The translations under genes and the position numbers were made by a program. Below the pieces are notes generated by a model, which saw only the letters and a program-made list of their open reading frames with translations, had not been told where the DNA came from and did not search any database. A DNA stretch of 64,000 bases from Hoeflea marina. GTDB taxonomy: Bacteria > Pseudomonadota > Alphaproteobacteria > Rhizobiales > Rhizobiaceae. Location: the NCBI RefSeq assembly GCF_003182275.1, contig NZ_QGTR01000004.1, forward strand, positions 425,811 through 489,810. The letters are read 5' to 3'. The number at the start of each line of letters is the position of its first letter. Within the stretch, counting starts at the first letter, position 1. Below, one piece after another: positions 7,315 through 29,834 of the stretch.

Positions 7315-7740
7315 CTACCGTGTGTCGAACGCTGCCCGGGCAAGTTTGACATCGGCTGAATTGCCGGCGACCCAGTCGACCAGACCCTGAAGAGCCGGCA
7401 GCAGGCTTTGCCCCATCGGCGTCAGCTCATATTCCACCCGTGGCGGCACTTCGGCGAACACCTCCCGGATGACGAGTCCGTCGCGCTCCAGATTGCGCAG
7501 GGTCAGTGCCAGCATGCGTTGCGATATGGTGGGGATCGACCGGTTCAGCTCCGAGAACCTGGCCCGCTCGCCTGGAAGCATCGAGAGCGCCAGCATTGTG
7601 AAGATGCTCCACTTGTCTCCCACCTTCGTCAACAGTTCACGGAACGCGACCGGATCTTCGTTGCGGCAAAGCAGCCCCGGCTCAAGCTGCGTTTTCCCGG
7701 CGCTCTTTCCCATGCTTACATCCCTGTTGGTTCCCGACAT
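7315..7740 (-). CDS. HxlR-family transcriptional regulator
   Basis: 141 residues, or 132 from MGKSAGKT. The winged-helix HxlR pattern is present: LLCRNEDPVAFRELLTKVGDKWSIFTMLAL, RFSELNRSIPTISQRMLALTLRNLERDGLV and VEYELTPMGQSL. It is divergent from the VOC-family gene at 7894, with 153 bases between, which suggests it controls that gene. It is the second of three HxlR genes in the window. Confidence 0.85.
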   Translation of the reverse strand: MSGTNRDVSMGKSAGKTQLEPGLLCRNEDPVAFRELLTKVGDKWSIFTMLALSMLPGERARFSELNRSIPTISQRMLALTLRNLERDGLVIREVFAEVPPRVEYELTPMGQSLLPALQGLVDWVAGNSADVKLARAAFDTR

Positions 7741-26236: not shown

Positions 26237-26371
26237 TCGATCGCCGCAGCTCCCCGGCGGCAGAGCCCGGCCAACGGCACGGCGACCCGCCGCTTGAGAA
26301 TCGCCGCCGTCGCTGCCACTGTCGCCACGGGCGCCGGCCCCCGGCCACGCCCGCCAGAAACAGGACAGCTG

Positions 26372-27202
26372 ATGAAGTCTATCCGCCACTATCCGATCAT
26401 CGGCGCCATCATCGCCCAGTTGCTCGCGGCATTGCTCGTGATCGCGGCAGCAGTCGCGGTGGCGGGAGCTGCCGAGCCGTCGACGCTGCTCTGGGCCGGC
26501 CTCGGTGTGCAGGGTGTCCTCGCCGCGGCTCTGACCAGGGCATTCGGGCTGCCCTCATGGTGGATCTGGATCGGTCTCGGCTTCCCGCTGGCCGTCTACA
26601 TGGCACTGCGGGCCGGTGACCTGCCGGCCTGGCCCTTTGGCATCGGGTTCGTCTTGCTCTATCTGGTCTTCTCCAACACCGCCCGTGAGCGGGTGCCGCT
26701 CTATCTCAGCAACAGAAAAACGGCTGCTGCCCTGCTCTCGCTGATGCAGCAGCGCGGCGCGCTCCGTTTCACCGATCTCGGCTCCGGCATGGGCGGCGTG
26801 GTCCGGGCGCTCGACGGCGAAGGCCGCAGCGCGCTCGGGGTCGAAACCGCGCCGATGGTCTGGCTGCTTTCGGCCCTCATGTCGAAGGCCACCGGCCGCG
26901 GTCGCATCCTGCGCCAGGACATCTGGCCCACGGACCTGTCCGGCGAGGACCTCGTCTATGCCTTTCTCTCGCCCGAGCCCATGCCGCGGCTCTACGCCAA
27001 GGCACAGGCCGAGATGAGGCCGGGCAGCCTGCTTGTCTCCAACAGCTTCGCGGTACCCGGCGTCGCAGCTGACGAAATCTGGGAAGTGGCCGACCGGCGC
27101 AGGACGCGGCTGTTCCTCTACGAGATGGGCAAGCCGCCGGAAGGGCCCCGGCATGAGAATGATCCCGACCCCACCGCGCAAGACGCCGGCGCGGCTGACT
27201 GA
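26372..27202 (+). CDS. Membrane-anchored SAM-dependent methyltransferase-like protein
   Basis: 276 residues from ATG 26372. Four hydrophobic segments fill residues about 8-102. A Rossmann-type domain with DLGSGMGGVVRALDGEGRSALGVETAPMVWL (motif I from residue 135) follows, then DLVYAFLSPEPMPRL and MRPGSLLVSNSFAVPG. This resembles class I methyltransferases attached to a membrane domain. No substrate is evident. It converges on the radical SAM gene and is probably unrelated to it. Confidence 0.7.
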   Translation: MKSIRHYPIIGAIIAQLLAALLVIAAAVAVAGAAEPSTLLWAGLGVQGVLAAALTRAFGLPSWWIWIGLGFPLAVYMALRAGDLPAWPFGIGFVLLYLVFSNTARERVPLYLSNRKTAAALLSLMQQRGALRFTDLGSGMGGVVRALDGEGRSALGVETAPMVWLLSALMSKATGRGRILRQDIWPTDLSGEDLVYAFLSPEPMPRLYAKAQAEMRPGSLLVSNSFAVPGVAADEIWEVADRRRTRLFLYEMGKPPEGPRHENDPDPTAQDAGAAD

Positions 27203-27270
27203 TCTGCGCTGGACCTGCCGTCGCGGGCGCGGTCCCGCCATGCAGCGACCGAAATCCGGGCGCTCGCTGC

Positions 27271-28743
27271 TCAGGCCGGCTCGGCAGCCCGGATTTCGGC
27301 GACCCGGTCTTCGATGATGCGCGCCTCCGGCCCGAGCAGCTTGCGGGCCTGGTGCTCGACATAGCGGTCGAACCAGTACATCCGTGACTCGCAGAAGAGA
27401 TCCTTGGCATTCATGTGGCCGTATTCGGCATGGGTATGGCCCGGCGATCCCCCTTCGCAGACATCGTGCCAACGGCAGGCACGGCATTCCTCAATATGGC
27501 GTGTCCGCTCCCGCATCATGTCGAGCTGGGCGTGGAATTTCGACTGCCGGAACGCCTGCTCCAGCGTCATCCCGTCCTTGAGATTGCCGAGAAACCAGCT
27601 GGGCGAGACCCAAAGCTGGTCGGCGAGAATGTTGCCCTGCGGGGTGATGCGCGGAAAGGCGTTGAAGAAGAAGATGTGCTTGGGAAAGAGGGGTGAGTCG
27701 AGGTCGAGGCGTCCCTCCGACGTGTTGCGGATGTCGCCGTGGAAATTGCCGTAGACCCGAAGATTCGGATTGTTGTAAGCCAGGATCCGTTCGCCGGCGG
27801 CGACCCAGTCCGGGGTCGAGGGGGCTATGCTGGCCCAGGGCGTGTTCTCCGCATGTCCCTGGCGCTGCCATTGCGAGAACACCAGCTGCCCGACGCCGTG
27901 CTCCTCGGCGATGCGGATCAGGTTGTCCACCTCATGAATGTTGCTGGTGGTCACGCAGGCAAACAGGACCACGTCTTTTTGCAGTCCTAGCTCCTTGAAC
28001 ATCTCGAGTGACTTCATCGATTCCGAGAACGTGCCGACGCCGCGCACCATGTCATTGGTCTGGCCGCCCGCCCCCTCCAGGCTCATCTGGATGCGAACAT
28101 GGCCGATGGCGCTCTCGTTGATGTGCTTGATCGCCTCCGCGAACTTGCGCGGAAACTTCCAGGCATTCGTGTAGAGATCGACACGATGACCGCAGTCCAT
28201 CGCCGCGTAACGCACGAAATCCATGCAGTTCTTGCGAACGATGGGCTCGCCCCCGGAAATCGCCAGCTGCATGCCCGAAAAGGGCGGCAGCAGGTCGATG
28301 GCCCGGTAGATGTCCTCGTCGGTCATCTCGTTGGGCAGCGCTGTCCCCGAGGCGACATAGCAATGCTTGCAGGAAAGGTTGCAGGCATTGGTGATCTCCA
28401 GGTGCATGCCGACCGGGTCGCCATGGGTATAGACGGGTGTCGAGGCCTGCCGCTGCTCCCGCATGCTCTGCCAACTCAACCCGGCCGCGCGCATGTCCGC
28501 GTCCAGCATCAGCACGTCGTCCATGCACATCTCTGCGCTGACCGCGGTGACGATGTCGGCCAGCCGCGTCTTTCCGTTGGCGTGCCGAGCATAGGCCCGG
28601 GCCCGCGTATCGAGAATGGCCCAGTGCTGGGTGCCCGGATCGATGGTGAAATCGAACTCCAGCCCGCCGTGCCCGACCCTGCGGCGGATCAGGTTTGGCG
28701 CCACATAGGGCCGGCTGAAGAATGCCTGATACGGAAGTCCCAT
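27271..28743 (-). CDS. Radical SAM/SPASM peptide maturase
   Basis: 490 residues. The N-terminal 95 residues (TIDPGTQHWAILD, YARHANGKTRLADIVTAVS, MRAAGLSW) look like a PqqD-type RiPP recognition element. The radical SAM cluster motif is C121-X3-C125-X2-C128 (CNLSCKHC), with the SAM-binding AISGGEP. A C-terminal SPASM region has Cys420, 423, 429 and 451 for auxiliary FeS clusters. The start overlaps ribosome site AGGTGA, which lies at the end of the repeat-peptide gene four bases upstream. It should modify that peptide; the chemistry is not predictable here. Confidence 0.9.
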   Translation of the reverse strand: MGLPYQAFFSRPYVAPNLIRRRVGHGGLEFDFTIDPGTQHWAILDTRARAYARHANGKTRLADIVTAVSAEMCMDDVLMLDADMRAAGLSWQSMREQRQASTPVYTHGDPVGMHLEITNACNLSCKHCYVASGTALPNEMTDEDIYRAIDLLPPFSGMQLAISGGEPIVRKNCMDFVRYAAMDCGHRVDLYTNAWKFPRKFAEAIKHINESAIGHVRIQMSLEGAGGQTNDMVRGVGTFSESMKSLEMFKELGLQKDVVLFACVTTSNIHEVDNLIRIAEEHGVGQLVFSQWQRQGHAENTPWASIAPSTPDWVAAGERILAYNNPNLRVYGNFHGDIRNTSEGRLDLDSPLFPKHIFFFNAFPRITPQGNILADQLWVSPSWFLGNLKDGMTLEQAFRQSKFHAQLDMMRERTRHIEECRACRWHDVCEGGSPGHTHAEYGHMNAKDLFCESRMYWFDRYVEHQARKLLGPEARIIEDRVAEIRAAEPA

Positions 28744-28747
28744 CGCA

Positions 28748-29371
28748 TCACCTGTAGATCACCCAATGACCCATAACGGCCCCCGGCGCTGCCCGCACCA
28801 TGCCCGAGGGGGCCGCACGCACCATTGCGCCCGGCGCGGCGCGAACCATGCCCGAGGGCGCGGCACGCACCATCGCCCCCGGCGCGGCGCGAACCATGCC
28901 CGAGGGCACAGCACGCACCATCGCCCCCGGCGCGGCGCGAACCATGCCCGAGGGCGCAGCACGCACCATCGCCCCCGGCGCGGCGCGAACCATGCCCGAG
29001 GGAACCGCACGCACCATCGCCCCCGGCGCGGCACGAACCATGCCCGAGGGAACCGCACGCACCATCGCGCCAGGCGCGGCGCGAACCATGCCCGAGGGAA
29101 CCGCACGCACCATCGCCCCCGGCGCGGCGCGAACCATGCCCGAGGGCACCGCACGTACCATCGCGCCAGGCGCGGCGCGAACCATAGCACCGGGCATGCC
29201 GACCGGGCTGCCCGTGCCGCCGCTCATGCCGCGCCTCGCGAGTTCGCTTTCGACTTCTTCCGAACTCATTTCAAATTCGCCAAGGCGATCGATAGGCACT
29301 TTGTAGAATTTGCCGTCGACCATCTGCATGATCACCGGCTCCTGGTCTGGGGAATTCGCTTCGGTTGCCAC
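28748..29371 (-). CDS. Repeat-core RiPP precursor (putative)
   Basis: 207 residues from GTG 29371, seven bases after GGAGGA. Residues 1-58 form an acidic leader (MQMVDGKFYKVPIDRLGEFE, SSEEVESELARRG). Residues 59-194 are 17 tandem 8-mers alternating APGAMVRA with VPSGMVRA or APSGMVRA. Residues 195-207 are a distinct tail, APGAVMGHWVIYR. There are no Cys, Asn or Asp residues in the core and no signal peptide. Tight coupling to the radical SAM/SPASM gene argues for a ribosomally made, modified peptide. I know of no described family with this core. Confidence 0.85.
   Translation of the reverse strand: MATEANSPDQEPVIMQMVDGKFYKVPIDRLGEFEMSSEEVESELARRGMSGGTGSPVGMPGAMVRAAPGAMVRAVPSGMVRAAPGAMVRAVPSGMVRAAPGAMVRAVPSGMVRAAPGAMVRAVPSGMVRAAPGAMVRAAPSGMVRAAPGAMVRAVPSGMVRAAPGAMVRAAPSGMVRAAPGAMVRAAPSGMVRAAPGAVMGHWVIYR
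28790..29197 (-). repeat. 48-bp tandem coding repeat
   Basis: Eight and a half near-identical 48-bp units (each two 8-codon half-units) encode the core of the peptide precursor. Units differ at few bases, mostly GGGC/GGGA and A/V codon changes, so the array has been recently expanded or homogenised. Because the period is a multiple of three, all frames on both strands stay open through it. Confidence 0.95.
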
Positions 29372-29834
29372 GTTTCATCCTCCGAATATACGAGATTTCG
29401 CAAATACGCACCACGTCATCCCATTCCGCGAACTATAATTCATATTCGGATCAATTTGAAGTATTTATCAGATTAAAGTGTCAATATGAACTATATATAT
29501 GTTTTTATTCGGATACTTATACTTATATCCGGCCACCTGCACTGACCCTGCAACGCCTGATACAGCCATTGGCTTGTCGCCGTATCGCCGGCAGGGCCAG
29601 CCTCTTGCTGGGAATACCCGATTGCGGCGTTCGACCGGCGCGTCCCGGGCGGGCGAACTCCACCTGCCCTTGGGCCAGGCGATGCGACCGCCCGGCGATC
29701 GGGCGGTCCTCTCCGCTTTCACGGCAGGCAGACGGAGTGAGGCATCGGACGCCGGCGCGAGAACGGGGCCCCGAGCCGCGCTGCCGCTTCACGATCCCCG
29801 GATTGAGCGAATCAACGGATCGCTGCGACGCGTC
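29372..29834. other. 463-bp intergenic region upstream of the repeat-peptide gene
   Basis: Bases 29372-29540 are strikingly AT-rich compared with the rest of the window and hold the candidate promoter. The remainder to degP is GC-rich without a supported gene or RNA. The base-composition break is consistent with acquired DNA. Confidence 0.6.
29432..29460 (-). promoter_or_regulatory. Candidate promoter of the RiPP operon
   Basis: On the minus strand a -35-like TTCAAA (29455-29460) and a -10-like TATAGT (29432-29437) are 17 bases apart, within AT-rich DNA. Transcription would start near 29425, about 55 bases before the GTG. A perfect TTGACA also occurs at 29479-29484 but has no good -10 at the right distance. 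Confidence 0.45.

Follow-up and report, generated by a model that had tools for sequence, protein, structure and literature searches.

A candidate two-gene RiPP-type system with a repetitive octapeptide core and a radical SAM maturase in Hoeflea marina

The window, by which we mean the whole 64,000-nucleotide stretch of Hoeflea marina DNA that was analysed, carries on its minus strand two adjacent genes that probably form a RiPP-type system, in which the leader of a repetitive precursor would dock on a radical SAM enzyme and every 8-residue unit of the core would be modified. An earlier note on the same DNA had read the two genes as a RiPP precursor and its maturase, and this reading gains support from four homologous pairs, from the profile of a PqqD-like domain in the enzyme, and from variation among the window units that is synonymous only at their conserved positions. 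What appears to set the pair apart among radical SAM RiPP-type pairs is an unusual core together with a reduced SPASM domain, and the chemistry involved could be new.

Precursor and maturase

The precursor gene (28748..29371; all features of the pair lie on the minus strand) starts with GTG, has a GGAGGA just 5′ of this start, and on translation of its open reading frame gives 207 aa that comprise a leader, 17 tandem 8-mers and a tail; homologous precursors are found at L039, L041, L042 and L043. The leader (residues 1–58; 29198..29371) contains a stretch around DGKFYKxP...L..F.MSSEEVE that is conserved in the alignments and in the leader profile. The core (residues 59–194; 28790..29197), as defined by TRF, by the unit count and by the purifying selection described below, holds 17 consecutive in-register units of the pattern [AVM]P[GS][AG]MVRA, nine with PGAMVRA and eight with PSGMVRA. 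Because the PGA-type and PSG-type units alternate, TRF reports the DNA array with a period of 48 bases (8.5 copies, score 667). The tail, APGAVMGHWVIYR, comprises the last 13 residues (195–207; 28751..28789), and a spacer of 4 bases (28744–28747) separates the precursor from the ATG of the maturase. The coordinates, codon count, leader length, number of 8-mers, short tail and four-base spacing are all as the earlier note had given them.

The maturase (27271..28743) is a radical SAM enzyme of 490 aa (PF04055, E 1.1e-17; family members 48–78% identical to it over residues 1–395). It bears the CX3CX2C radical SAM cluster motif (C121/C125/C128; 28360..28383) and, towards its C-terminus, four SPASM-type cysteines in a single auxiliary-cluster motif, CX2CX5CX21C (C420/C423/C429/C451; 27391..27486); the CX3CX2C motif and the four cysteines had already been picked out in the earlier note. 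At the N-terminus, about residues 19–90 (28474..28689) appear to form a PqqD-like (RRE-type) domain, as judged from a comparison of the family profile with a PqqD profile and from low-confidence models. In the former comparison, made by hhalign between the N-terminal parts of the five members and PqqD domains taken from relatives, the two profiles align over 62 columns, nearly the full length, at a probability of 93–95%, as against 4% for the reversed profile and at most 1.8% for 30 column shuffles. A plain PqqD HMM, which like the first PqqD alignment contained one row in the wrong frame (L094, left out of the later comparison), matches the N-terminus of the Nocardia homologue at E 1.8e-5 and that of the window enzyme at E 0.092, near the E 0.16 of its own reverse. 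Pfam PF05402 matches one of the five N-termini only, that of Nocardia (E 0.0013, under the curated cut-off); the window N-terminus has no PqqD match in Pfam, and a search of the sequences of solved structures with the N-terminal part reaches a PqqD entry at E 0.59 at best. The predicted N-terminal fold is strand-strand-strand-helix-helix-helix in models that are poor (mean pLDDT 50 and 47), and when the weak domain model was submitted to Foldseek, the chains at ranks 1–5 (E 0.22–0.72, none significant) were RRE-bearing. On the profile-profile test of the five members, we infer that the N-terminal PqqD-like part is the leader-binding domain.

Alignment with the sulfatase-maturating enzyme (anSME) places D375 and S433 of the window enzyme at two further SPASM Cys positions; we take C420/C423/C429/C451 to be AuxII ligands and the positions of D375 and S433 to be of AuxI type. 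Residues 264–419 contain no Cys in the window and Peteryoungia enzymes, and the corresponding region holds one in Nocardia (C408) and one in Marinimicrobium (C400), the Nocardia C408 aligning opposite window A397, outside the AuxI positions. CX2CX5CX21C itself is present in all four uninterrupted enzymes (that of Roseibium is frameshifted), each of which has four SPASM-type cysteines, as against the seven or eight of a full SPASM domain given in PMC10452713. The SPASM domain is reduced, with only one auxiliary-cluster motif retained. The motif is common to NirJ / AhbC, and in NirJ, as described in PMC12505453, CX2CX5CX20-21C binds one four-Cys [4Fe-4S] auxiliary cluster that is a proposed electron donor. 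By analogy with NirJ, the four-Cys auxiliary cluster of the maturase would more likely serve electron transfer than peptide binding. The substrate of NirJ / AhbC, however, is a tetrapyrrole, and the window enzyme reaches 93 bits with the NirJ model TIGR04051 against a cut-off of 515.

Homologous pairs and the conserved unit

Scanning the contigs of 84,980 species with two strict peptide patterns, by which variants will have been missed, found homologous pairs in Peteryoungia ipomoeae (L041), Roseibium hamelinense (L042) and Marinimicrobium agarilyticum (L043), and a fourth lies on a plasmid of Nocardia sp. NBC_01377 (L039), the enzyme of which is 51% identical to that of the window. A leader-related repeat precursor stands directly upstream of the enzyme in all five members including the window, so that the co-occurrence counts five cases, and the leader profile has exactly one match in each of five genomes or records (those of the four homologues and the window genome). 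A leader profile had been proposed in the earlier note as the way to precursors with differing repeat counts, and the number of units per precursor ranges from 4 to 17 among the five members; maturase homologues that lack an adjacent repeat gene, named there as evidence against the RiPP reading, are absent among enzymes of at least about 47% identity. The precursor-enzyme spacer is again 4 bases in Peteryoungia and Roseibium and 11 in Marinimicrobium, and in Nocardia the genes overlap by one base (TGATG), given starts chosen at 7558 and 7980 (RefSeq: 7630 and 8298, the match extending upstream of 8298). Over residues 1–395 of the enzyme, the three alphaproteobacterial members are 73–78% identical among themselves, Nocardia and Marinimicrobium are 54% identical, and identities between the two groups are 47–50%; these values stop at residue 395, as the Roseibium row is out of frame over its last ~40 residues in the alignments and derived searches, and the Marinimicrobium row begins one codon past its ATG. 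The frameshift concerned is near the 3′ end of the Roseibium hamelinense maturase gene (L042 6001–7438) in the assembly, next to an uninterrupted precursor of 104 residues. Because the enzyme gene is frameshifted there, the pair may be dispensable in Roseibium.

The five precursors give 51 8-mers in register, save one 6-residue stretch (Marinimicrobium residues 104–109), with the consensus x-P-x-x-[M/F]-[V/A]-R-[A/P]. Pro2 is found in 51/51 units, Ala or Pro8 in 50/51, Arg7 in 46/51, Met or Phe5 in 44/51 and Val6 in 41/51. The units are of a Met-type in the window, Peteryoungia and Roseibium (the first Roseibium unit has Phe) and of a Phe-type in Nocardia (Phe at position 5 in 6/7) and Marinimicrobium (7/9), with Ala in place of Met at position 5 in 4 of the 14 Peteryoungia units. 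Arg7 is missing in 4/9 Marinimicrobium and 1/7 Nocardia in-register units. As the earlier note had remarked of the window core, Cys is absent, and this extends to all five precursors at full length; nor is there an aromatic residue in any of the 17 window repeats. Because Cys and aromatic residues are both lacking there, thioether and cyclophane chemistry are argued against in the window; the former was rejected for the precursors in general and the latter for the window.

An aromatic-to-Arg crosslink, i.e. a three-residue cyclophane of the type F-x-R, may nevertheless be considered for the Phe-type members, with F-V-R or F-A-R triads present in Nocardia, Marinimicrobium and one Roseibium unit. 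We regard this as improbable, since Met occupies the corresponding position in 17/17 window units, rendering an aryl crosslink in the window repeats impossible. Valine cyclopropanation in every unit (Val to cyclopropylglycine) would be the chemistry of TvgA/TvgB, the poly-cyclopropylglycine RiPP of Halomonas anticariensis, where, according to PMC9062424, the TvgA core is also repeating (TVGG), TvgB modifies Val repeatedly, and the repeating motif is called peculiar and previously unreported by its authors. As a peptide-modifying radical SAM enzyme that acts on a precursor of short repeating motif, TvgB provides the closest precedent for unit-by-unit modification, and in agreement with such a chemistry V6 is found in 17/17 window, 14/14 Peteryoungia, 4/4 Roseibium and 6/7 Nocardia units. 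It is, however, found in 0/9 Marinimicrobium units, where position 6 is Ala, Ser, Tyr or Trp, and Val is thus not universal in the 8-mer xPxx[M/F][V/A]R[A/P] that here takes the place of TVGG. Moreover, the dioxygenase and two transporter genes of the five-gene tvg set (PMC9062424) have no counterpart in the window's two-gene pair, in the two scanned neighbours or among the annotated Nocardia neighbours, and a TvgB-like reaction appears an unlikely assignment.

In pairwise Nei-Gojobori counts among the 17 window units, positions P2, M5, V6, R7 and A8 exhibit 332 synonymous and 0 nonsynonymous differences (summed over pairs that are not independent; with one codon for Met, M5 contributes no synonymous sites), and replacements are confined to positions 1, 3 and 4. 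At the same five positions, the 14 Peteryoungia units exhibit 249 synonymous and 97 nonsynonymous differences; of the latter, 90 fall at position 5 (Met versus Ala), and the other 7 arise on counting paths that link Arg codons. The units are thus old enough to differ at the DNA level but have kept their protein sequence, as expected under purifying selection on the window units. Several frames are open in this repetitive GC-rich DNA, as they might be for a repeat artefact or a dead gene in the window; however, the conserved unit positions vary only synonymously in the precursor frame, and the maturase is uninterrupted with dN (0.22) well below dS (1.26) against its Peteryoungia homologue, so that we attach next to no weight to either explanation. 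A promoter scan gave one site versus 0.5 expected, which does not count as evidence.

The same selection bears on the possibility that the enzyme modifies the C-terminal tail only, with the repeats as a spacer or in another function. In all five precursors a mostly hydrophobic tail closes with Arg, and MftC (TIGR03962), which modifies the end of the mycofactocin precursor, is the top NCBIfam match of the four enzymes scanned (4/4), for which no model reaches its cut-off among the best 25 matches listed. The MftC score, however, is 112–141 bits against a cut-off of 265, and the present enzymes differ from MftC in a fused PqqD-like domain and in a repetitive precursor. The tails are otherwise divergent among the members, whereas the consensus of the unit is retained in different phyla, with the window array under purifying selection, and we thus consider modification of the tail only to be rather unlikely and favour modification within the repeats.

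The top solved relatives, by sequence or fold, are the peptide-modifying radical SAM enzymes SkfB, CteB (PDB 5WGG) and SuiB. The products of SkfB and CteB are thioethers to Cys, whereas no Cys is available in any of the five precursors here. The earlier note had named SCIFF, GRRM and His-Xaa-Ser systems as examples; the enzymes of these systems are not the nearest relatives. For the radical SAM enzyme TigE, too, the core is repetitive, with a motif unlike that of the window; its entry (PDB 8VPO) is at Foldseek rank 9 for the low-confidence full-length model but is not one of the 19 distinct PDB sequences retrieved with the family profile at E up to 10.

Rarity and genomic setting

The family is very rare. 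Family-profile searches of genome samples at E 1e-40 (several samples drawn from larger groups, and some with only 4 or 5 candidates scored per genome) matched the window's own genome alone out of 299 from the phylum, and elsewhere returned the known members: 1/87 genomes in the family of Roseibium, 1/144 in that of Marinimicrobium, 1/346 in that of Peteryoungia, 1/271 in the class of Marinimicrobium and 1/295 in the order of Roseibium. When the single enzyme served as query, matches were obtained in 59/61 relatives at E 0.001 and, within the class, in 18/385 genomes at E 1e-14, all of them besides the window's own being distant (at most 35% identical, mostly over the radical SAM core); in the genus, 2/18 match at E 1e-14, the window's own and one that is 29% identical over residues 104–301. 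Around distant radical SAM enzymes (about 25–33% identical), which are other families, no such repeat precursor was found in 40 loci (best E with the leader profile 0.97). Scans of viral contigs gave no close relative and three distant loci (28–32% identical in the best segment), and in phage records 14 distant matches to radical SAM proteins came up, all those listed at less than 29% identity. A plasmid search with the precursor returned 27 records at E up to 1, with a query coverage of at least 80% in Nocardia only; in Kineococcus, the next plasmid match, none of the 12 annotated neighbours is a radical SAM gene. Among the titles and abstract openings listed from an open-licence library, none names this precursor-enzyme family, which is apparently unnamed, and searches directed at the family itself or at its hosts yielded no paper.

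The gene order hflC, degP, GNAT, serB, miaA is conserved in 17 congeners as far as the compared stretches extend, and degP, a conserved chromosomal protease gene, is next upstream of the pair. The degP-GNAT interval is 54–114 bases in 12 of these congeners and 1.2–2.4 kb in the other five (L075, L078, L079, L080 and L091). Four of the five longer intervals carry long frames with a common motif, LIKPSHYDDDGYVIRWWRSMIPSN. In the window, the interval spans 3.6 kb (26237–29834) and holds the two-gene pair and a putative membrane-anchored methyltransferase (26294–27202, plus strand) that is convergent to the maturase; neither the stretches from the 17 congeners nor the surroundings of the other four pairs contain a match to it at E 1e-3. 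The interval is variable and near-empty in 12/17 congeners, and the pair is therefore cargo in it, explained most simply by a gain in the lineage of the window. A second PqqD-like frame is found elsewhere in the genome (G000:C3:102692-102886, a 107 aa open frame, 46 bits).

No exporter or peptidase is encoded within the two-gene pair, and its units resemble PG-turn repeats, as might be seen if an unmodified elastin-like or structural repeat protein were beside a radical SAM gene by chance. Against this, five lineages carry the same pair with a common leader, and the enzymes share the PqqD-like domain, so that a chance neighbour of this kind is very improbable. A known structural or phage family was rejected on NCBIfam, Pfam and PHROG scans of the precursors: NCBIfam gave no match for the five precursors, a structural or collagen-like leader being what the earlier note had named as evidence against its reading; Pfam gave one sub-cut-off match inside the repeats (searched with the window precursor only); and PHROG gave weak matches in two of the five precursors, mostly within the repeats.

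Proposed function and site of modification

In the RiPP-type system that we favour, the precursor would be made by the ribosome and its leader bound by the PqqD-like domain at the N-terminus of the enzyme. The radical SAM enzyme would then work along the Pro-punctuated core with one H abstraction per unit, and the same small C–H modification in each unit would yield a polymer-like peptide with many altered residues; any export or leader removal would have to rely on genes outside the pair. The proposed single modification per unit is supported by the purifying selection on every one of the window's units.

With respect to the site, the earlier note had named Met, Val, Arg or Pro. Met and Val do not occur in all members, such that Arg7 or Pro2 would be likelier than Met or Val if the chemistry is common to the members. 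Phe is not universal either, which leaves Arg7 as the reactive side chain retained most widely and makes it our tentative first guess. Met/Phe5 comes second as a less likely site, followed by Pro2, Val/Ala6 and the C-terminal tail (rather than the repeats), each of which we hold to be doubtful and to an equal degree. Pro2, more conserved than Arg7, may serve recognition or shape. At its fullest, the proposal is of a new RiPP class with a fused leader-binding domain, one auxiliary cluster and a new C–H change, probably at Arg, made once per unit and up to 17 times per chain to give a polymer-like product, the system having moved between Alphaproteobacteria, Gammaproteobacteria and Actinomycetota; taken as a whole, this is conceivable, at somewhat short of an even chance.

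In radical SAM RiPPs, the chemistry is generally deduced from Cys or aromatic residues of the core. With neither in the window repeats, any modification would have to fall on aliphatic, Met, Pro or Arg positions or on the backbone, and the natural Met/Phe and Val/Ala swaps, together with cores of 4 to 17 units, make both the site and the processivity of this family directly testable.
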